Source: Candidatus Gastranaerophilales bacterium
GTDB taxonomy: Bacteria > Cyanobacteriota > Vampirovibrionia > Gastranaerophilales > UBA9579
DNA: 32,599 nucleotides
Reading direction: 5' to 3'
NCBI GenBank assembly: GCA_028689995.1
Contig: JAQVCB010000012.1
Span: 1 to 32,599 of the forward strand
Below the pieces are notes generated by a model, which made no database searches, was not told the origin of the DNA, and was given only the letters and a program-made list of their open reading frames with translations. The position numbers were made by a program, and so were the translations under genes. Below are positions 3,262 through 18,183 of the stretch, one piece after another; positions within the stretch are counted from its first letter, which is position 1, and every line of letters begins with the position of its first letter.

Positions 3262-5214
3262 ATGAAACAGATAGAACTTCTCTCCCCGGCAAAGGATCTG
3301 GAATGTGGAATTGCGGCAATAAAATGCGGCGCTGATGCAGTCTATATTGGTGCAGGTAAATTTGGAGCCAGAGCATCAGCCGGAAATAACATTGAAGATA
3401 TAAAAAAACTCATTCAATTTGCCCATTTTTACAGGGCAAAGGTCTATGTTACCGTTAATACGATTCTTAACGACAACGAGATTGAACAAGCTCAAAAACT
3501 TATAAAAAAACTTTATGAAATATGTGCAGATGCAATAATTATTCAGGACATGGGGTTATTAGAACTGGATTTACCGCCAGTTCCAATTTTTGCAAGTACA
3601 CAATGCCATAATAGTACTTCAGAAAAAGTAAAATTTTTGGAGCAAGCTGGTTTTAGCAGGGTAATACTTGCAAGGGAACTTTCTCTCGAGCAGATTAAAG
3701 AAATAAGATTTCAAAGTGATATTGAGCTTGAATCTTTTATACACGGGGCTCTTTGTGTCAGCTACAGCGGGCAGTGTTATATGAGTTATGCCAATGGAGG
3801 CAGATCTGGCAACAAAGGAGAATGTGCTCAACCATGCCGCAAGCAGTATGAACTTGTTGATTCAAATAACAAGGTTATTTCAGACAAAAAACATTTACTT
3901 TCTTTAAAAGATTTAAACCTGTCAAATCATATAAAAGACCTGATAGATGCAGGGATAACCTCATTCAAGATCGAAGGCAGGCTAAAAGATATCAATTATA
4001 TAAAGAATATAGTTTCATTTTATAGAACTAAAATAGATGAAGTTCTTGAAGGAACTCGGCATAAAAAAAGTTCCAGCGGTAATGTCTTTATAGACTTTGT
4101 TCCTGATTTTTCAAAAACTTTTAACAGGGGCCATTCAGAATATTTTATAAACGGTAGAAAAAAAGAAATAACATCTTCGGATACCCCGAAATTCAAGGGA
4201 GAAGGTGTTGGAAAAATAACAAAAATATTCAAAGACAGCTTTATTCTGGATAAAAAGCCTGAAGTAATAATGAATAACGGTGATGGAATAAGTTTTTTCG
4301 ATCAACAAGGAAATCTATGCGGTACGGTGATAAATAATGTTGATGATAACAGAATTTATCCTAATATCATGAATTTTTTGCAGGTTAATACATACATATA
4401 TAGAAATCTTGATCATGAATTTATTAAAAAGATAAAAAATTCCAAAATTGAAAGAAAAATTCAGTTAAATTTGTGGCTTTCAGAAACTCCAGCAGGCTTA
4501 ATACTTCATGCCATAGATGAAGATGGTATTGAAGCAAATGCTTCAATTGATACAGAAAAAGAAATAGCAAAAAATCCACAAATGGCTATTGATAACATTA
4601 AAAAACAACTTTTAAAACTGGGAGAAACTGACTTTATTTGTTCAGATATAGAGATTAATCTTAAAAATAGCTATTTTATAAGAATAAAAGATCTTAATGA
4701 ATTGCGAAGAACCCTGATTGAAAAGCTTGAGCAAAACCGTATAAATAGCTATGAAAGACAAAATAGAATAATTACTAAAAACGATTATCAATATCATCTT
4801 TCGGAGCTCACTTTTGAAGGTAATGTCTTAAACAGCTATGCTGAAAAGTTTTATACAAGGCATGGAGTAAAGGCAATAGAACCTGCGGCAGAATCAGGAC
4901 TGGATATGAAGGACAGGAAAATTATGACAACAAAGCATTGTCTTAAATATCAATTTGACCTGTGTCCAAAGCATGATCTAGTATCAAGGCAGTTGTGCCA
5001 GCTCCTTGCCGCCACAACTGCCTTTCACCTTTCTAAGGTCGGGTTTGAAAAATTCGATTTTCCCAGAAAATCAAAATTTTCCCGTACCCTCGAAAAGAAT
5101 AAATCAGATTTTCAAGCACCCTTTTATCTTGTAGATGATCAGAATAAAAAATATTTACTCAAATTCAACTGTAAAAGATGTGAAATGGAGATTTATTTAA
5201 ACTTTACTAAATAG
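3262..5214 (+). CDS. rlhA: 23S rRNA C2501 hydroxylase-type U32 family protein (RlhA/YdcP-like) with C-terminal insertion
   Basis: The start at 3262 follows GAAGGGTAAG and gives the canonical U32 N-terminus MKQIELLSPAKD; the open frame reaches 38 codons further upstream but that part looks non-coding. The 650-residue length and architecture match E. coli RlhA (YdcP), which is required for 5-hydroxylation of C2501 in 23S rRNA. Family hallmarks are NTILND, QDMGLLELDLPPV, STQC, LARELSLEQI and FIHGALCVSYSGQC, then GECAQPC. Cys165, Cys172, Cys188 and Cys192 are in the region that carries Fe-S ligands in U32 relatives. The second half is the DUF3656-type domain ending in TTKHCLKY, LCPKH and FNCKRCEMEI. 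Between LCPKH and FYLVDD there are about 47 residues where E. coli (from memory) has about 11; this extra segment holds two palindromes, one being element P1. Peptidase activity is not expected. An older annotation would be 'peptidase U32/collagenase-like'. Confidence 0.85.
   Translation: MKQIELLSPAKDLECGIAAIKCGADAVYIGAGKFGARASAGNNIEDIKKLIQFAHFYRAKVYVTVNTILNDNEIEQAQKLIKKLYEICADAIIIQDMGLLELDLPPVPIFASTQCHNSTSEKVKFLEQAGFSRVILARELSLEQIKEIRFQSDIELESFIHGALCVSYSGQCYMSYANGGRSGNKGECAQPCRKQYELVDSNNKVISDKKHLLSLKDLNLSNHIKDLIDAGITSFKIEGRLKDINYIKNIVSFYRTKIDEVLEGTRHKKSSSGNVFIDFVPDFSKTFNRGHSEYFINGRKKEITSSDTPKFKGEGVGKITKIFKDSFILDKKPEVIMNNGDGISFFDQQGNLCGTVINNVDDNRIYPNIMNFLQVNTYIYRNLDHEFIKKIKNSKIERKIQLNLWLSETPAGLILHAIDEDGIEANASIDTEKEIAKNPQMAIDNIKKQLLKLGETDFICSDIEINLKNSYFIRIKDLNELRRTLIEKLEQNRINSYERQNRIITKNDYQYHLSELTFEGNVLNSYAEKFYTRHGVKAIEPAAESGLDMKDRKIMTTKHCLKYQFDLCPKHDLVSRQLCQLLAATTAFHLSKVGFEKFDFPRKSKFSRTLEKNKSDFQAPFYLVDDQNKKYLLKFNCKRCEMEIYLNFTK
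4986..5024. repeat. 12-bp perfect inverted repeat inside rlhA
   Basis: AAGGCAGTTGTG at 4986-4997 is exactly complementary to CACAACTGCCTT at 5013-5024, with a 15-base loop. It lies in frame in the inserted C-terminal segment of rlhA (about residues 575-588), just before palindromic element P1. No second copy was seen in this window. Confidence 0.8.
5040..5092 (-). repeat. Palindromic coding element P1 (inside rlhA)
   Basis: An imperfect palindrome around a CCCAG centre: the left arm GGGTTTGAAAAATTCGATTT mirrors the right arm AAATCAAAATTTTCCCG. Read on the minus strand it matches element P2 in the porin gene without gaps at 38 of the first 45 positions (hand count), starting GAGGGT and containing TTGATTTTCTGG versus CTGATTTTCTGG. 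In rlhA it is read on the other strand and encodes about residues 593-611 (EKFDFPRKSKFSRTLE). It sits where RlhA relatives have no sequence, so an insertion is the simplest explanation. Confidence 0.75.
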
Positions 5215-5235
5215 AGGTTTGAATTTAAAATAAAG

Positions 5236-5427
5236 TATACAAAAACGAGTTTATATTTCCGAAGGCTTGAACGAGTTACTAAAAGCCTCCAGCTCCTGCT
5301 GATCGCAGCAGCTTCAGCTTTTTTATACTCCCACTACCGTATATCGCCTCCGAAAATAACGCTCCTACTACCGAATACCACATTTTGTTTGCTGTTAAAA
5401 CCCCAAATTCATTTTTGAAGTGGTATA
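5236..5427. repeat. Repeat A, copy 2 (upstream of leuA)
   Basis: Second direct copy of the ~190-bp repeat seen at about 1471-1660. It keeps the CTGCTGATCGCAGCAG palindrome and the two blocks GCCTCCGAAAATAACGCTCC and CTACTACCGAATACCA. Near its right half ATACCAC (5386-5392 region) and GTGGTAT (5420-5426 region) can pair. It fills almost the whole 228-bp gap between the rlhA stop and leuA. The 15-bp outer inverted repeats of copy 1 are not preserved in this copy. Confidence 0.85.
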
Positions 5428-5429
5428 AT
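5421..5429 (+). promoter_or_regulatory. Extended -10 promoter at the end of repeat A2, driving leuA
   Basis: TGGTATAAT matches the extended -10 consensus TGnTATAAT exactly. No good -35 hexamer lies 16-18 bp upstream, which extended -10 promoters can do without. Transcription would start near 5436, about 25 bases before the leuA ATG at 5461. The same position in repeat A1 reads TGGTATACT. Confidence 0.55.
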
Positions 5430-5460
5430 TTAGAAGTTTAAAATGATGGAAGAGAAATTA

Positions 5461-7014
5461 ATGAGCAGAAAACCTTTTTTTTATGATGTAACTTTGAGAG
5501 ACGGCAATCAGGCTTTGAAAAAGCCCTGGAATACAAAGCAAAAAGAAATAATTTTTAATCAACTTGTAACACTTGGCGTTCAAGGAATAGAAGTAGGCTT
5601 TTCAGGTTCAAGTGATATGGACTTTGAAGCTTGTCAACATCTTGCAAATATTGCACCTGACAATATAGTAATATCAGGTCTTGCAAGAGCAGTTGAAAGA
5701 GATATTATCAAGGTTGCAGAAGCAATTAAGAACGCAAACAGACCCAGAATTCATACATTTATTGCAATGAGTCCGTTTAATATGGAACATGTGCTTAGAA
5801 AAGATCCTAAAGACGTTAGAAAAATTGCGGTTACTGCTGTTAAATATGCTAAATCTCTTTTAGGAGAAAAGGGTGAAGTTCAGTTTTCTGTTGAACATTT
5901 CGGTGATTGCAGAGAAAATTTGAGTTTTGTTATAGATTCTCTTCAGGAAATTGCAGCAGCAGGAGCAAAAGTTTTTAATCTGCCAAATACTGTTGAACGC
6001 ACACGGCCGCTTGAATTCGTTAATATGATCAAAGAAGTCAGAAATGCTCTCCCTGAAAATGTTATTGTTGCTGTTCATTGCCATAATGATCTTGGAATGG
6101 CAACAGCTACGACTGTTGAAAGTTACTTTGTAGGAGCAGATCAGCTTGAATGCAGTCTTAACGGACTTGGTGAAAGAGCAGGAAATACAAATTTATATGA
6201 AGTTGCAACAAGTCTTCATAACTGCAGTGTTGAAATTCCTTTGAATATGTCAAAAATATATGAAAGTGCGGTACTGGTTGCCGAAATGTCAGAAATTGAA
6301 ATTTATGAAAAAAGTCCTTTAATCGGCCCTGATGCACTTGCTCACAGAAGCGGAATTCATCAGGATGGTGCAATGAAAACTAAAAATATGGAAAAAGGTG
6401 CGTATAGACCTATTCATCCTTCATTAATCGGAAGAGATGACGATGAACATCTTGGCTTTACAAGTCAATCAGGCAAAACTGCCGTTTATGAAATTATTAC
6501 AAGAGCCGGGTATCCTATTACTACTGAAGAAGCAATCAGGATAACTCCTTCAATTAAAGAAAAAGCTGAAAAAATCGGTGAATTACCTACTGAAAGTATT
6601 CTTGAAATTTACTTTAAAGAAATATTTGACGTCAAAGGATTGTTTAAATTTCTTGAGTTTACAAAGATTAATGATGTTGAAAAAGAAAAATATAAATTAC
6701 GCTTTAGTTACAATGAAAAAGAATTTGAAGAAATTGGGCAGGGAGATGGCCCATTAGAGTCTTGTCTTTCAGCTCTTTCTCAGGCTGGTTTCCCTCAAAA
6801 GCTTGCGCATTATGAACAATTGGCGCTCGGTGAAGATACAAGAGGTGTCGCAGCTGATGCTATGACAATTATCCATTTAATGTCGCCTGACGGAGAAAAA
6901 GTTGTATGTAGAGGCATAGATCATAGTACAGCCAAGGCAAATGTTAAAGCAATATTTAATGGTTTAAACTTGATCTATAATAAAAAGCTGTCTGAAATAA
7001 AAAGCGCGAAATAA
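5461..7014 (+). CDS. leuA: 2-isopropylmalate synthase-type acyltransferase (LeuA family)
   Basis: The ATG at 5461 is preferred over in-frame ATGs at 5443 and 5446 because GGAAGAG at 5448-5454 sits six bases before it. The 517-residue protein is a DRE-TIM metallolyase: TLRDGNQ at 11-17 (Asp14 a metal ligand), HCHNDLG at 206-212 (both His metal ligands), GLGERAGN at 235-242, then SGIHQDG. The last ~120 residues form a LeuA-type regulatory domain (GDGPLES...A), which in the family binds leucine. Expected reaction: acetyl-CoA plus 2-oxoisovalerate to 2-isopropylmalate, first step of leucine synthesis. Citramalate or homocitrate synthase remain possible because they share the fold and the regulatory domain. 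The N-terminal DGNQALKKPWN and NLPNTVER recall long type-2 enzymes, while HCHNDLG and SGIHQDG are type-1-like. Its stop is 4 bp from the convergent porin gene. Confidence 0.8.
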   Translation: MSRKPFFYDVTLRDGNQALKKPWNTKQKEIIFNQLVTLGVQGIEVGFSGSSDMDFEACQHLANIAPDNIVISGLARAVERDIIKVAEAIKNANRPRIHTFIAMSPFNMEHVLRKDPKDVRKIAVTAVKYAKSLLGEKGEVQFSVEHFGDCRENLSFVIDSLQEIAAAGAKVFNLPNTVERTRPLEFVNMIKEVRNALPENVIVAVHCHNDLGMATATTVESYFVGADQLECSLNGLGERAGNTNLYEVATSLHNCSVEIPLNMSKIYESAVLVAEMSEIEIYEKSPLIGPDALAHRSGIHQDGAMKTKNMEKGAYRPIHPSLIGRDDDEHLGFTSQSGKTAVYEIITRAGYPITTEEAIRITPSIKEKAEKIGELPTESILEIYFKEIFDVKGLFKFLEFTKINDVEKEKYKLRFSYNEKEFEEIGQGDGPLESCLSALSQAGFPQKLAHYEQLALGEDTRGVAADAMTIIHLMSPDGEKVVCRGIDHSTAKANVKAIFNGLNLIYNKKLSEIKSAK

Positions 7015-7018
7015 TTGA

Positions 7019-8425
7019 TTATAGTGTTAGTACACTTCTTAAACCCAATACATAAGCGTTTTTAAATTGACCTCCCGGGTGAAAAACTATTTGAAAGTCA
7101 GGTTGAATAAAAAACCATGGCTTTATTTGAAACAGATAAAAAGTTTCAAGTGCAGTTTCAGTTCTTGCGCCACTGACATATTTGCTAAAATTGGCAAATC
7201 CTGCGCCAATACCTGTTGCGTCATTATCTCGTTTTGGTATTAAACCTTGATAGGAGACACCAAAAGCATACGTTCTTGTAACAGGGTTTCTGTCTTGAGG
7301 CGCCCAGCCAAATTGACCTACAAGAGATAATCCCTGAGTATCTTCTCCTTTAGCATTTTCTTTTAGGATAAGGGGATTAAAGCCTGCATATACTCCAAAA
7401 TTTGAGGAGAATGTTCCAGGGTTTGCCAAATCTTGTATTTGGTTTGTATCCTGCCAGAATCCGTATACCTGTTTTCCCTGTAAACGTTTATAAGTTGGAA
7501 ATAAATTTATTTCGGCTATTGTAAAATGTCCTTTCCCTGTAAATAGCGAATTAATTTCGGTAGATTTAGACGGATCAAGTGATTTAAACCAACCTGTTCT
7601 TAGTGCAAACACTTTATTGGGCTGAATTAATGCTGATATTCCTCCTGACGTAGCCGGAAATGTTGGAATTGGAATTGTTCGTGTAGAACTAAATGCAAAA
7701 TTTATAAATTTTACTCCCGGTCCAATAAATGCTAAATCAAGGTTAGCATCCTGTTTCCCAAATTTTATATTGAGTTTGTCAGAGAACAAACTTTGTCTGT
7801 ACCAGTATTCTGTTAATTCAGTAATAGGTCTGGTATCAAAGGAGTTTATTGCCTGTACATCACCTACATAATCCTGATCTATACTTGAACCTGTACTGTT
7901 TTGAAATAATACGTATATGTGTCCTCCCTTTAAGGGGACAAGTTTTTCTGTATGTATACCCAGAGCAACGCTTGTCAATCCCTGCGCAACAGGTTTATTT
8001 GTAGGGTTTTTTCCACCATAAAGCTTTTGGAAATTGTTATTCATATAGTTGACAATTATAGAGATTCCATATTCTGCAAGTTCCTCTCTCAGTCCAAACC
8101 AGTTCTTTGTTGCATAATTGCTTATTGTTGCCTGTTCAAAAGTAGGAAGATCTATAATCTGACTCTGATCAGAATTTTGTTCTTCTTTCTCATTTTGGTC
8201 GGCTATATTCAGTAAGTTATTATTATCAGGTAATTTAAGTTCTATAATTTCAAGCTCTTGTTTTTCAGGAAGTTCCTGTGCAAAAACCTGAAAATTAGAT
8301 AATAAAATTATGCTTAAGCAAAATGCTAAAGTCAGGATGGCAGTATGAAGATGCGGAAAAATTACATTTTTCCAGAAAATCAGAATTTCTCCGCACCCTC
8401 TAGATATTTCATGTTTTATTTTCAT
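7019..8425 (-). CDS. OprB-family (carbohydrate-selective) outer-membrane porin
   Basis: From the ATG at 8425 the protein has 468 residues. It has a long N-terminal lead, a hydrophobic signal core (AILTLAFCLSIILL) and a probable signal-peptidase-I site after VFA. The mature part shows OprB features: NWFGLREELAEYGISI, then YGG, ELTEYWYRQSLFSDKLNIKFGK with DANLDLAF, many alternating beta-strand segments, and a C-terminal beta-strand (YVLGLRSVLTL). A low-complexity Asn/Glu/Gln linker precedes the barrel. No S-layer-homology domain is present, unlike many cyanobacterial OprB proteins. An upstream ATG at 8470 would add 15 residues, but its frame is not conserved in repeat copy B2, whereas MKIKHEI is. 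Neither start has a clear Shine-Dalgarno. The first ~9 codons are repeat B and the next ~18 are element P2, so the N-terminus appears built from repeat DNA. Confidence 0.8.
   Translation of the reverse strand: MKIKHEISRGCGEILIFWKNVIFPHLHTAILTLAFCLSIILLSNFQVFAQELPEKQELEIIELKLPDNNNLLNIADQNEKEEQNSDQSQIIDLPTFEQATISNYATKNWFGLREELAEYGISIIVNYMNNNFQKLYGGKNPTNKPVAQGLTSVALGIHTEKLVPLKGGHIYVLFQNSTGSSIDQDYVGDVQAINSFDTRPITELTEYWYRQSLFSDKLNIKFGKQDANLDLAFIGPGVKFINFAFSSTRTIPIPTFPATSGGISALIQPNKVFALRTGWFKSLDPSKSTEINSLFTGKGHFTIAEINLFPTYKRLQGKQVYGFWQDTNQIQDLANPGTFSSNFGVYAGFNPLILKENAKGEDTQGLSLVGQFGWAPQDRNPVTRTYAFGVSYQGLIPKRDNDATGIGAGFANFSKYVSGARTETALETFYLFQIKPWFFIQPDFQIVFHPGGQFKNAYVLGLRSVLTL
8346..8400 (-). repeat. 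Palindromic coding element P2 (5' end of the porin gene)
   Basis: An imperfect palindrome: GATGCGGAAAAATTACATTT on the left mirrors AAATCAGAATTTCTCCGCAC on the right around TCCAG. On the minus strand it begins GAGGGTGCGGAG and aligns without gaps to P1 in rlhA (38 of the first 45 positions by hand). In the porin it is translated as GCGEILIFWKNVIFPHLH, just before the signal-peptide core, and abuts repeat B1. Confidence 0.75.
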
Positions 8426-8587
8426 ATATGCAAGCAGGAGTTGAGAAAAGCCGGGAAATTTAATTTGCATATGATTTGAGCTTTTCGCAACTCGTTCCTA
8501 AATTATGAAATTACAGGGTTAATCGTAGGTAAATCCTGTAAAAAATGACATTACTAATATTGCTACTTGTATTGCCTATGTGTATTA
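8401..8587 (-). repeat. Repeat B, copy 1
   Basis: About 187 bp repeated in the same orientation at 11180-11367, differing at only a dozen or so positions by eye. Internal arms AGTTGAGAAAAGC (8439-8451) and GCTTTTCGCAACT (8480-8492) pair with one mismatch. On the minus strand it carries the upstream region and first codons (MKIKHEI) of the porin gene. Confidence 0.9.
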
Positions 8588-8849: not shown

Positions 8850-10046
8850 TTAAGAAATTTTTTGTTTTAATTCATCAATTTCTTTTTGCTGTTTCTGAAT
8901 GATATCATTAAGTTCTCTTATTGAGTTAACCAAAACAGGAATTAATTTATTTTGTGAAATAGACCATAATTCTTTAGACTCGTCTTTGGGTTTCGATACT
9001 ACTTCTGGAATAACTTCATAAATTTCCTGAGCAAAGAAACCTATCTCTTGTATGTTCTCATCTGATAAAACCAATTCAGGAGTTTTAGTTAAATCATCAA
9101 TCAGCTCAGTAACTTTTTCGCCATTTTCATTAGTTATTTCTTTTTCTATTTTAGGATAAACAAATTCTGAAGAATGATGCGTATATTTTCTAGGCTTTAA
9201 CTGTAATATTTCATTTAAGCCATAGTGACAAGAGCCCAGATCTTTTTTAATTCTTGAGTCAGAATAAGTGTCCCAAGCTTGAGCTTTTGCCTTTTTAGTG
9301 GAACTATTAGGAAGTTGCAACAGATAATTTGTATCAACAACCGAAGAAGCGCCAATATAAACTGCGCTATTCTCATTAATAGTCATTGCTGAAGCAAATG
9401 TTGTTGAGCCATTGGGAGTAACATTTATATTAATCTTTGCTCCTTGAGCAGTATCAGACCAATTTTCCGCTGCCCTTAATTGAATACTTGTTCTTGAAGT
9501 TGAACTAAAATCCGAACTTCCATAACCTTTTCCTGAAATGAAAATTAAAAAATCTCCTAATTGTACCGGTTGCGGATTACCAATAGTTCCCCTGGCTCTA
9601 TTTCCTATTACATAGCATGCATTATTATCATCATTATATGTTGTTAAATTAATGGCTGGGATTGATGAAGTTATGTTAAGTCCCTCAAAGGTTGGGCTGG
9701 AAGTATTTCTTACATCCTGATTAATGTTTTCTGAAATATCAACGCCATCAACCAATCCATCCTTAACTGGTACACTTTCAATTGTTACACCTTGATCAGT
9801 AGTTTTTTCATTAATTGTGTCAGTACTGATTTCCACAAAGGTTGGGCTGGAAGTATTTCTTACATCCTGATTAATGTTTTCTGAAATATCAACGCCATCA
9901 ACCAATCCATCCTTAACTGGTACACTTTCAATTGTTACGCCTTGATCAGTAGTTTTTTCATTAATTGTGTCAGTGTTAACGCTTTCAGCTTCAATACTTA
10001 TTGCAGTCAATTTCCCACTATCATCAACAGTTACAAGTATACTCAC
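8850..10046 (-). CDS. Tail-fibre-like surface protein with C-terminal S74 intramolecular chaperone domain
   Basis: I start the gene at GTG 10046 because GGAGG lies eight bases upstream; the longer frame from TTG 10061 would put that ribosome site inside the gene. The product has about 398 residues and no signal peptide. Order: short N-terminal segment; two near-identical repeats with the phage/viral-fibre motif TDTINEKTTDQGVTIES; a beta-rich middle; then a C-terminal Peptidase_S74 domain of about 140 residues with YSDSRIKKD (the Ser-Arg-Ile-Lys region where these domains self-cleave), EIGFFAQEI and a final coiled coil. S74 domains help trimeric fibres fold and are then cut off. No other phage structural genes are nearby, so this is an isolated fibre: a domesticated adhesin, a prophage remnant or a horizontally acquired gene. 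It lies in a cassette bounded by direct copies of repeat B. Confidence 0.8.
   Translation of the reverse strand: MSILVTVDDSGKLTAISIEAESVNTDTINEKTTDQGVTIESVPVKDGLVDGVDISENINQDVRNTSSPTFVEISTDTINEKTTDQGVTIESVPVKDGLVDGVDISENINQDVRNTSSPTFEGLNITSSIPAINLTTYNDDNNACYVIGNRARGTIGNPQPVQLGDFLIFISGKGYGSSDFSSTSRTSIQLRAAENWSDTAQGAKININVTPNGSTTFASAMTINENSAVYIGASSVVDTNYLLQLPNSSTKKAKAQAWDTYSDSRIKKDLGSCHYGLNEILQLKPRKYTHHSSEFVYPKIEKEITNENGEKVTELIDDLTKTPELVLSDENIQEIGFFAQEIYEVIPEVVSKPKDESKELWSISQNKLIPVLVNSIRELNDIIQKQQKEIDELKQKIS
9686..9974. repeat. Tandem 150-bp duplication inside the S74 gene
   Basis: The 139-bp blocks 9686-9824 and 9836-9974 are identical except for one base that I could find (A versus G in TGTTACRCC) and are spaced 150 bp apart, exactly 50 codons. 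The reading frame is kept and each unit encodes TDTINEKTTDQGVTIES... through ...NTSSPTF. Confidence 0.9.
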
Positions 10047-10102
10047 AAAATTTTCCTCCAAACACTCTGTAAAAAGTATATTTAAATTATAAAAATATTA
10101 AC

Positions 10103-11055: not shown

Positions 11056-11179
11056 ACTCATTTTAAGCGAAGCGGGAGTGATGAATTTGAGCCGCTGATT
11101 CAACCAAAACTTTTGATTTATCAAGTTTTCCTATCAGTTGCTGAAGAATCAGATCATAATTAGCTTTTTCTGCATCCTT

Positions 11180-11367
11180 TAGGTATTTCATGTTTTATTT
11201 TCATATATGCAAGCAGGAGTTGAGAAAAGCCGGGGAATTTTAATTTGCATACGGTGTAAGCTTTTCGCAACTCGTTCCTAAATTATGAAATTACAGGGTT
11301 AATCGTAGGTAAATCTGGTAAAAAATGACATTACTAATATTGCTAATTGTATTGCCAACGTGTATTA
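11180..11367 (-). repeat. Repeat B, copy 2
   Basis: Direct copy of 8401-8587. On its minus strand it keeps the start MKIKHEI, but the frame stops a few codons later (…KGCRKS then TAA), so here it leads into no gene. The in-frame MQIK start seen in copy 1 is frame-shifted by one base. The stretch 11368-11468 between it and purB shows only AT-rich leader sequence. Confidence 0.9.
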
Positions 11368-12764: not shown

Positions 12765-15428
12765 ATGTTCAGAAATATTTTTAATGAGGTTATGGAAAAA
12801 TACAAATTTCTACAAAATTTAGAATTTTTTCATCACTGGATCTGCATAATTTTATTCTTATTGATTTTTTTATCAGTAAATTTAAATTGTAATGCTGTTC
12901 AAAATAGCGATAATATTAAGGTTTTTCATTTAAATAATGGACAGACAGTTGTAATTAAGGAAATTCATTCTAATCCTATTGTAACAGTTGATACCTGGGT
13001 TAAAACAGGTTCAGTTAATGAAGATGACAGTAATAACGGTGTATCGCACTTTCTAGAACATTTATTATTTAAAGGGACGAAAAAATATAAAGTTGGTGAA
13101 GTTGATAGAATTCTTGAATCCAGGGGAGGGCATTTTAATGCTGCTACAAGTAAGGATTTTACTCATTTTTATATAACACTGCCAAGCCAATATTTTGATA
13201 CGGCAGTTGATCTTCATTCAGATATGCTGCTTAATGCTCAAATTCCTGAGGCAGAGCTTAACAGAGAACGAAAAGTTGTTCAGGAAGAGATAAGAAGAGC
13301 AGATGATTCTCCGGAAAGAATTCAGTCAGATAACATAATAAAAACTCTTTTTAAATCCCATCCGTACAAATACGATACTCTCGGTACGTCAGAAATAATA
13401 GGGAGTATACCGAGAAGTGAAATTTTGAAATATTATCATAGATGGTATATTCCATCAAACATGATTACTGTTATTGTTGGAGATGTTGATACACATAAAG
13501 CTCTAAGTCTTGTAAAACAAAAATTTGGAGATAATTTAACTGCGAAAGCTCCACAAATTAAATATAGTCGTGAGCCTCAAGTTATAAAGACAGTTGAAAT
13601 AGTTAAAAAAGGTAATTATAATGTTGCATATCTCGATATTGCTTTTAAGGGAGTGCCTGTAACAGATCAAAAAGATAATAATGCTCTTGATATTGCCGCA
13701 AATGTACTTGGTAACGGCAGAACTTCCAGGCTTTATCAAAATGTTAAAGATAAACTTAATATTGTAACTTCTGTTGATGCTGGAAATCAATCAATGAAGG
13801 ATGACAGTATATTTATTGTTGATGCCAATCTTGATCCTCAAAATTATACTATTGCAAAAGAATCTATAATCAAAGAAATTGAAAAGCTCAAACAGGGGAT
13901 AACTCAGGAAGAACTAAAAAGAGCTAAAATACAGTTACAAAGACAATTTTTGTATAGCAGTGAATCAACAGAAAATATTGCAAATTCAATAGGATATACA
14001 ATGACAATTGGCGGTAATATTGATTATTACACTAAATATATTGATGAACTTAATAAAATTACAGCATATGATGTCAAACTGGCTGTTAATAAATATCTTT
14101 TGACTTCAAAAATGGCAGTTGCAGGACTTTTACCTGAAAATAGCAATGTTGGAGCAATTCCGAAGTCAGAAGAAACTTATAACAACATAACAAAATCAGT
14201 TTTAAGTAACGGAGCTACGTTGATTACGGATAAAAATATCTCCAATGAAATTATTTCGATGAGTTTAATTTTTAAGGGCGGAGATCTGATAGAAACAAAA
14301 CCCGGAATAACTGATTTAATAACGGGAATACTTTTAAAAGGTACAAAAAACAGGTCTGCTCTTGAATTATCAAAAGAACTTGAAAACTCAGGCATAATTA
14401 TTGCACCGTCTTCAAATCCTGATTATTTTGAAATTCAGCTTAAATCAACAGCTCAGGATTTTGATAAGGCTCTTGAGATTTTGGCAGATGTGGTAAATAA
14501 CCCTTTATTTAATCAGGAAGATATCGATAAGTTTAAAATTGATATATTACAGAGTATACAGAAATCAAGAGATAATCCTCTGCCTCTTGCAATGGAAAAG
14601 TTTAACAGAGAAGTATTTCCTAATCATCCTTATGGTTTTGTAGGAGAAGTGCTTGAAAAAAACATTCCAAACATAACCAGAGATGAAATTATTAACTTTT
14701 ATAAAGATTATTTTATCCCTGAAAACTTGGTAATAGCAGCATCAGGAAAAATTGATCAGAAGCTTCTTTCAGATAAAATAAACGCGTATTTTCCTCTGAA
14801 ATGCGGTAAAATTGTTGATATTGCCGGTCTGCAAAATCAATTCAAGCCTTTTGCTCAAAATAAGTCAGTAATGACTGCAAAACAAACTTCAGCGGCATGG
14901 GTCATCATGGGATGGCCGGTTAGAGGAATTGCAGCTGAAAAAGACTATGCAAGTTTAAAAATCATTGATGCTTTACTAGGAAGCGGGCTTAGTTCAAGAC
15001 TTTTCGTTGATTTAAGAGAAAAACAGGGGCTTGCATATCAGGTTGGCAGTGCTTATCCATCAAGACTTGATAATAATGTTTTTATGTTATATATAGGTAC
15101 AGAACCTAAAAATTTAAAAACGGTTACAGATGGTTTTTTAAGTGAGATAAACAGGATTAAGTCTGAGAATATAAGCGCAAAGGAACTTAGTGAAGAAAAA
15201 CAGAAAATAAACGGGCAGTTTTTATTATCACAGGAAACAAATCAGGGAAAAGCACATTACTTGGCGTGGTTTGAGTCGATAGGCAAAGGTTACAAGTTTA
15301 ATTATAATTTCCCCGATTTGATTAATTCAGTTACAATTGATGATGTTAAACAAACAGCAAATAAATATTTTAATTATCCTTATGCAATGTCAATTGTAGC
15401 TCCGCAAAGCAGCATAGCTGCACCATAA
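12765..15428 (+). CDS. M16 family zinc metallopeptidase, two M16 modules fused
   Basis: An 887-residue protein whose ATG abuts the purB stop. The N-terminus has a hydrophobic signal or anchor at about 26-41 ending NCNA, so export is likely. The first M16 module has the inverted zinc motif HFLEH (95-99) and the downstream Glu in ERKVVQEEI (Glu174/175). It continues through the usual inactive partner half (RTSRLYQNV). From about residue 485 a second pair of M16 halves follows: TDLITGILLKGTKNRSA occupies the place of the zinc motif without His residues, and RLFVDLREKQGLAYQVGS is the conserved substrate-site region. Cyanobacteria often have two adjacent M16 genes; here both modules are one polypeptide. 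The first ~25 residues, before the hydrophobic segment, overlap a diverged copy of the palindromic element (P3). Confidence 0.88.
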   Translation: MFRNIFNEVMEKYKFLQNLEFFHHWICIILFLLIFLSVNLNCNAVQNSDNIKVFHLNNGQTVVIKEIHSNPIVTVDTWVKTGSVNEDDSNNGVSHFLEHLLFKGTKKYKVGEVDRILESRGGHFNAATSKDFTHFYITLPSQYFDTAVDLHSDMLLNAQIPEAELNRERKVVQEEIRRADDSPERIQSDNIIKTLFKSHPYKYDTLGTSEIIGSIPRSEILKYYHRWYIPSNMITVIVGDVDTHKALSLVKQKFGDNLTAKAPQIKYSREPQVIKTVEIVKKGNYNVAYLDIAFKGVPVTDQKDNNALDIAANVLGNGRTSRLYQNVKDKLNIVTSVDAGNQSMKDDSIFIVDANLDPQNYTIAKESIIKEIEKLKQGITQEELKRAKIQLQRQFLYSSESTENIANSIGYTMTIGGNIDYYTKYIDELNKITAYDVKLAVNKYLLTSKMAVAGLLPENSNVGAIPKSEETYNNITKSVLSNGATLITDKNISNEIISMSLIFKGGDLIETKPGITDLITGILLKGTKNRSALELSKELENSGIIIAPSSNPDYFEIQLKSTAQDFDKALEILADVVNNPLFNQEDIDKFKIDILQSIQKSRDNPLPLAMEKFNREVFPNHPYGFVGEVLEKNIPNITRDEIINFYKDYFIPENLVIAASGKIDQKLLSDKINAYFPLKCGKIVDIAGLQNQFKPFAQNKSVMTAKQTSAAWVIMGWPVRGIAAEKDYASLKIIDALLGSGLSSRLFVDLREKQGLAYQVGSAYPSRLDNNVFMLYIGTEPKNLKTVTDGFLSEINRIKSENISAKELSEEKQKINGQFLLSQETNQGKAHYLAWFESIGKGYKFNYNFPDLINSVTIDDVKQTANKYFNYPYAMSIVAPQSSIAAP
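12786..12835 (+). repeat. Putative diverged palindromic coding element P3 (5' end of the M16 gene)
   Basis: An imperfect palindrome, TATGGAAAAATACAAATTT against AAATTTAGAATTTTTTCAT. It begins GAGGTTATGGAAAAAT, comparable with GAGGGTGCGGAGAAAT in P2; about 17 of the first 24 positions agree, then one gap is needed. Like P2 it lies just before a signal-peptide core, but it is read in another frame. AT richness could produce part of the likeness. Confidence 0.4.
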
Positions 15429-17598: not shown

Positions 17599-17698
17599 TG
17601 TCATGCCGAGCGAAGTCGAGGCATCTTGTCAACATTATAAAAATACTTCAGGATTGGTAAGATCTTTCGACTCCGCTATCGCTCCGCTCAAGATGACT
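17599..17698. repeat. Dispersed TGTCATGCCGAG...CTCAAGATGAC repeat
   Basis: The ends TGTCATGCCGAGCGAAGTCG and CGCTCCGCTCAAGATGAC form the partly inverted ends of a repeat type common in many bacterial genomes. A related element is at 20419-20532 and a half-element near 18184. The open frame running through 17426-17878 is made of this repeat and is not a gene. The rest of 17381-17950 shows no gene. Confidence 0.7.
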
Positions 17699-17951
17699 TT
17701 TTTAAAATTATTTTCTGGGGCGCTTTTCTTTTTGCTCACAAAGATAATAGACACGGGGTTTGGGTCGTTAATCCATTATAAATTCAAAAAATCCGAGTAT
17801 CGTAGGGTTTTAACCCACGCTGAAGAGGTTTGCTTGATTGTATCGGTAAAATTGTTAATTCGTCAGAACAATGTTTAATTACAACTATAAACAAAGATTA
17901 CTAGTTCTTCCTCACCCCTAAAGGGGATGGAACAATTTTACCTGTGTTACT

Positions 17952-18159
17952 CGCTCATAATGGATTGTAAAAAACCTTTTAAGGCGGCGGATTTACACAT
18001 AGCCCCTCCTTTTTTATTTTGTTTTTATTTATTTTAAGGAGGGTTGGGAAAGAAGTGTTTTTGGACTTAAATTGAAGTAGAGTTCTTTGTTGGTAGTAAT
18101 AGAAGAAGGAGCTATGTGTAAATCCTTGCTAAAAAAGATTTTAACAATCCATAATTCGC
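17952..18159. mobile_element. MITE-like element with long terminal inverted repeats
   Basis: About 208 bp without coding capacity. The outer ends ATAATGGATTGT (from 17957) and ACAATCCATAAT (to 18155) are complementary with one mismatch. Further in, GGATTTACACATAGC (17989-18003) pairs perfectly with GCTATGTGTAAATCC (18111-18125). A central CCCTCCTT / AAGGAGGG pair (about 18004-18011 and 18036-18043) adds an inner stem. No transposase is in the window. A related end sequence (TTAATCCATTATAAATTC) occurs near 17771. Confidence 0.65.
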
Positions 18160-18183
18160 TTCTTGGGAGTTTTATCAAATTTA

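Follow-up and report, generated by a model that had tools for sequence, protein, structure and literature searches.

We analysed a 32,599-nucleotide stretch of the genome of a Candidatus Gastranaerophilales bacterium, an uncultured relative of the cyanobacteria that does not photosynthesise (contig JAQVCB010000012.1, positions 1 to 32,599), hereafter the window, which carries three copies of a short dispersed DNA element built of hairpins (H1, H2 and H3) and conserved linkers. The first copy, P1 (4972..5091, minus strand, 120 bp), lies in frame in rlhA (3262..5214, plus strand; Peptidase_U32 and DUF3656 by Pfam) at residues 575-614 (numbering from 3250), and the host frame in the open reading frame (ORF) list stays open throughout. 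P1 consists, all on the minus strand, of H1 (5041..5091; left end GAGGGT...ACCC), the core linker GACCTTAGAAAGGTGAA (5024..5040), H2 (4986..5023) and the 3' linker GATACTAGATCATG (4972..4985), at which several other copies without H3 also end; H3 is absent. The core linker was delimited by alignment A3 (14 core-H2-H3 sequences) and alignment folding, H2 by covarying helices in A3, and the 3' linker by alignments A2 and A3. P1 showed 86-92% identity to other copies across 117-120 bp and was matched by model R1 at E=1.6e-13. Model R2, a model of H1, matched its H1 at E=1.9e-16, a value that is not independent because P1 belongs to the input sequences of R2.

The second copy, P2 (8347..8400, minus strand, 54 bp or 18 codons; R2 E=9.3e-10), is a short form in which outer H3 is joined to outer H1. 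It showed 91-92% identity to the left ends of other copies, and its right half matched right ends; P2 is an internal-deletion derivative of the full element with both ends joined. P2 is located at the 5' end of an ORF for an OprB-family porin (7019..8425, minus strand; start codon uncertain). The start region of this ORF (8401-8587) is itself repeat DNA, 92% identical to 11165-11367, and Pfam homology to OprB begins at residue 158, so the coding status of P2 is uncertain, and the insertion may have occurred at the edge of the porin gene rather than in established coding sequence. The third copy (12786..12845, plus strand, 60 bp; R2 match 12786-12839, E=3.4e-7) is degenerate, with H1 followed directly by the CACTGGATC linker, and matched the H1 of locus L144 at 41/49 positions and locus L146 at 33/35. 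It occupies N-terminal codons, in the signal-peptide n-region, of an ORF from the ORF list resembling M16-type peptidases (12765..15428, plus strand; family named from the HxxEH motif in its sequence), and an ATG at 12792 inside the copy could be the start codon of this ORF.

The initial annotation had noted P1 and P2 as palindromes inserted in the coding sequence of unrelated genes. Both palindromes were present, folding better than dinucleotide shuffles (P1 z -2.5, measured on its H1 hairpin; P2 z -4.6), and the hand-counted identity of 38/45 was reproduced exactly (5047-5091 with 8356-8400, ungapped; 84% over 45 bp). The opposite orientation relative to the genes was likewise borne out: rlhA, on the plus strand, runs through P1 antisense to the element, and the porin ORF, on the minus strand, reads P2 in the element's sense. 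The limits required revision, with P1 extending from 4972 rather than 5040 to 5091 and P2 beginning at 8347 instead of 8346 while keeping its end at 8400; the third copy had escaped the initial annotation. The palindrome proposed as the unit is real but forms one arm of a three-hairpin element of about 156 bp that resembles a miniature inverted-repeat transposable element (MITE). Insertion in coding sequence holds for rlhA; it is uncertain for the porin, and most copies genome-wide are intergenic.

To place these copies in context, we searched the host genome (a 2.99-Mb draft in 201 contigs). A blastn search with a 71-bp stretch of P1 returned 21 places at E<1e-4, a search with a full copy returned 32 matches at E<=1e-5, and R1 identified at least 31 loci at E<3e-4, with E-values down to 1e-25. 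No match at E<=1e-3 arose in 3 Mb of simulated sequence that shared the dinucleotide composition of the window, so the comparison with an AT-matched control did not refute the initial annotation. The short shared core TTTTCTGRRAAA alone was barely enriched (29 sites vs 23 for the reversed control). With stricter filters than in the host-genome run, R1 detected related elements in 73/286 genomes and 19/50 genera of the order Gastranaerophilales; R1 was run within the phylum only, and in a 386-genome phylum sample 26 genomes matched, all in the same order, with no detection outside it. Most copies were intergenic in the host genome and across the order alike. We did not find the element described in the literature on Gastranaerophilales or Melainabacteria.

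The results revealed a common architecture of H1, linker GACCTTGGAAAGGTGAA, H2, linker GACACTGGATCATG and H3, with element sizes of 54-157 bp and no gene inside. Most full copies, read with their flanks, measured 154-157 bp, and those of subfamily C 138-140 bp. H1, the left hairpin GAGGGTGCGGAAAAATTCTGATTTTCTGGGAAAATCGAATTTTTCAAGCCC, begins GAGG, and H3, the right hairpin GAAGATGCGG...CCGCATCTTC, ends as a palindrome; the element ends are of the form GAGG(G/A)TGCGGAAAAA. In subfamily A, GAGGGTGCGGAAAAATT and GAAGATGCGGAAAAATT are candidate terminal inverted repeats, with a weaker likeness in the other subfamilies. H2 differs in sequence between subfamilies (GGCAGTTGTGGCGGCGAGGAGCCGGCATGGCTGCC in an A copy, ACACATGCACAGCCGCGATGAGCGGGTGGGTTTGTGTGT in B, GGTAATATCGGCGGCGAAAAGCCGGCAATATTACC in C) while its fold is the same, and the terminal hairpins differ among subfamilies and order-wide copies (GAGGGTGCGG, GAGGCTACGG, GAGACCTTTGCATAAC) while core helices and linkers are conserved. 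Order-wide copies such as L172 and L174 kept the architecture with different sequence (GAGGATGCGG...CCGACCTTAGGTGTGTGA, H2, GAAACCGTTCC, then H3 as GAGTTTGCG...CGCAAACTC). Some copies had lost a module (H3, or H2) or gained nested inserts in the H1 or H2 loop. Copies L036, L039, L046, L142 and L145, which lack H3, break off at almost the same position (GATCATG or GATCTCG), and a second hairpin module, TGAGTTATGCAAACCCTCCATGCAGGCAAAGCCTGCC..., is nested at the same H1-loop site in L037, L041, L042, L052, L054 and L084, with GGGAA-like flanking repeats. Subfamily B copies L046-L050 and L015 lie mostly between divergently transcribed genes.

Covariation supported the fold. In A3, 93.8% of cells were paired, compared with 84% in shuffled alignments and 44-52% in slid versions, and 16/30 pairs had both sides changed, a value reached by 0/500 shuffles. 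The folds of single copies, too, were far stronger than those of shuffled sequences (z -6 to -11). A permissive cmscan against Rfam gave no credible match at the element, returning only miRNA and sRNA matches far below gathering scores. HEARO/IscB RNA, group II introns, attC sites and the hammerhead were weighed and set aside, as none of their defining motifs was seen and Rfam was silent.

Several conserved proteins carried the element in frame and internally, as had been anticipated, namely RlhA, a 5'-nucleotidase and a sugar-binding protein, and homologues of these lacked the insert. In RlhA, about 39 extra residues follow the CPKH motif and precede the Cys motif at the C-terminus; all 18 homologues compared (Bacteroidetes, Gastranaerophilales) were without them, so that the peptide was carried by 0/18 and this test, too, did not refute the initial annotation. 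In an AlphaFold prediction of RlhA (17 sequences), the insert had pLDDT values of 43-58, and the residues directly after it had 81-88. The 5'-nucleotidase insert spans query residues 82 to 138 where PDB 2z1a runs from 151 to 156, and that of the sugar-binding protein spans 121 to 185 where 6rjy runs from 107 to 124. In TadA and KsgA the element lies beyond the end of homology, as C-terminal tails, and at L040 it follows a signal peptide. The GpmI insert sits at an ambiguous N-terminus; neither GpmI, for this reason, nor Lon, whose ORF ends inside a truncated copy, was accepted as a firm coding insertion. Most hosts read the element in frame a1 (EIQCQGSSAGSSPPQLPFTFPRSGLKN...), RlhA reads it in frame a0, and the porin ORF reads P2 from the opposite strand. 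The same DNA thus appears in different frames and on different strands, and it is therefore the DNA, not the peptide, that is common, as the initial annotation had argued.

Gene location was associated with length. The genic copies with clear ends measured 156, 156, 156, 120, 120 and 54 bp. Each of these lengths is divisible by three, so that a 3-bp duplication keeps the frame. Frame-compatible copies made up 6/6 of the genic and 1/9 of the intergenic group (P=0.0014). Subfamily A contributed all genic copies in the comparison (7/13 vs 0/14 for the others; P=0.002); subfamilies B and C were exclusively intergenic, and B is mostly 157 bp, a frame-shifting length.

The flanks carried marks of mobility. 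Exact 3-bp duplications flanked 6/14 two-ended copies in the host genome compared with 1.2 expected by re-pairing (P=5e-5), slide controls gave 0 or 1, and 5/10 order-wide copies from other genomes had identical 4-bp flanks (P=2e-4). Two copies in unrelated genes, L032 and L034, were 98% identical and had different duplications (TTG and CTT). These duplications indicate transposition. Among candidate movers, a PF01609 search gave seven matches with ends unlike the element. A 3-bp TTA duplication flanks an IS5-like copy (L225) whose ends are GAAGCTGTTTTATT, and the IS5-like ends GAAGCTGTTTTATTAAAAA bear only a loose likeness to the element; this transposon was rejected as a general mover, being present in 7/286 genomes vs 73 with the element and having different ends. 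We also observed a cousin element in three copies identical over 93 bp (L212, L213 and L214, on contigs C17, C99:36067 and C136), whose ends are GAGACCGCTGCATAAC / GACTGATGCATAAC and whose flanks carry repeats of 5-6 bp; these copies likely transposed recently.

In our view, the three copies in the window probably stem from insertion of a MITE-like, non-autonomous element of Gastranaerophilales that is tolerated in genes when it lands in phase. A transposase acting in trans would insert the element of about 156 bp at staggered cuts, leaving 3-bp duplications in the host genome and apparently 4 bp in relatives. A subfamily A copy of 156 bp would lengthen its target by 159 bp once the 3-bp duplication is counted; this total is divisible by three, and the strand antisense to the element has an open frame. 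Landing in phase within a gene would then add some 40-53 translated residues to a protein that stays complete and presumably functional, and insertions in other phases would be purged by selection, which would account for the frame bias without targeting.

Several observations weigh against this interpretation. Few genic copies were available, the tallies were made with the pattern already known, and the seven genic subfamily A copies include GpmI with its ambiguous 5' end. Eight of the 14 two-ended copies had no exact 3-bp duplication, and no empty site was readable at the nucleotide level among compared genomes that include no other of the genus. We found no autonomous element with these ends in a search that covered the PF01609 transposases of the draft genome and not other families. 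The draft is 89% complete with 6% contamination. Moreover, the terminal hairpins are more variable than the core among subfamilies, unlike a typical MITE.

This last pattern suits a different explanation, in which the element is no degenerate MITE derived from an insertion sequence but acts chiefly as structured RNA or single-stranded DNA; its folded core would be the functional and mobile part, and its insertion in genes incidental. Core helices and linkers conserved across the order beside differing terminal hairpins, the strong covariation and the failure of the PF01609 search to yield an insertion sequence with matching ends all speak for it. However, short direct flank repeats are the footprint of a DDE-type DNA transposase, Rfam gave no match, and covariation in DNA hairpins can also come from palindrome correction; we regard this explanation as unlikely. 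In a broader form, an order-wide superfamily would have a mobile and selected folded core (RNA or single-stranded DNA) and exchangeable terminal hairpins, with one lineage having reached a gene-compatible length and frame; this, too, we regard as unlikely.

Other explanations concern what the insert does in its hosts. Strong hairpins and insertion within conserved domains would fit an insert that is cut from the mRNA or bypassed by the ribosome and never made into protein, but neither process needs an open frame or a length divisible by three, and yet all clear-ended genic copies have both; the mRNA of most hosts also bears the complement of the conserved strand, and we judge this account very improbable. 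That the element is targeted to genes, or retained there, since its peptide benefits the host proteins draws on the a1 peptide being kept in several hosts. However, the frame used in RlhA is a different one, P2 is read on the opposite strand, neither subfamily B nor subfamily C has genic copies, and the structure prediction for RlhA has low confidence in the insert; we find this explanation scarcely credible. A chance resemblance of P1 and P2 as AT-rich palindromes, to which the weak enrichment of the short core alone would lend some colour, is refuted by the 31 loci, their E-values and the empty simulated genome.

Insertion of a non-autonomous element tolerated in phase, the interpretation we prefer, has consequences beyond these genes. 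It explains why proteins of the order that are otherwise conserved can contain odd insertions, and it calls for caution among annotators. It also provides a testable rule, because sister subfamilies that differ by one base in length stay out of genes: from an open frame and a sum of element length and target duplication divisible by three, it should be possible to tell where elements of this kind can live.

The window contained further repeats. The repeat of about 200 bp at the porin start extends over 8386-8587, carries the putative porin start codon and has its 92% identical counterpart in intergenic DNA (11165-11367). Another of about 200 bp (1466-1664 and 5232-5430, 90% identical), with the palindrome CCTCCAGCTCCTGCTGATCGCAGCAGCTTCAG, also occurs on contig C7 (L008, 91-93%). 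Intergenic repeats at 17599-18173 include a VMPSEVEA-type stretch, with 17838-18173 being 91% identical to part of contig C101 (L018), and a 142-bp tandem repeat (9683-9824 / 9833-9974, 98.6% identical) lies inside the ORF at 8850-10061.

The best-known selfish DNA that enters protein genes without destroying them is that of Rickettsia, and the present case is an apparently unrelated one in a distant phylum. By analogy, the element appears to behave like the Rickettsia palindromic elements (RPEs) or intragenic MITEs. RPEs, which the initial annotation rightly cited as precedent, are likewise about 150 bp, dispersed and in frame in unrelated genes that are kept open (PMC10969869), a likeness in behaviour; they are not, however, the sole precedent. 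It is not rare for intragenic MITEs to create in-frame fusions, which RPEs do at unusually high frequency, and the MITEs with ORFs listed in the same 2024 review include two from the cyanobacterium Anabaena PCC 7120, MITEb and MITEe (PMC10969869). Unlike RPEs, the element described here has three covarying hairpins with conserved linkers, genic copies in one subfamily only and flank duplications, and it belongs to another phylum. With bacterial MITEs (Correia, Nezha, Anabaena MITEb/MITEe) it shares shortness, lack of a transposase, related inverted ends, short duplications and internal-deletion forms, but it has no parent insertion sequence found, a core more conserved than its ends and a hairpin at each end. 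By description, it also resembles the enterobacterial RU/ERIC elements, mobile repeats of 100-170 bp with open frames inside annotated genes, whose intragenic RU forms were described by Delihas (PMC2759123). REP and other palindromes derived from IS200-IS605 have hairpins near the element ends and insert without target duplication. The 3-4 bp duplications found here set the element apart from REP and PATE. BOX elements vary in the number of boxB units. Pneumococcal BOX is similarly a modular, small dispersed repeat with stem-loops (PMC3049150), whereas the Gastranaerophilales element loses modules (H3, or H2) or takes nested inserts in its H1 and H2 loops.

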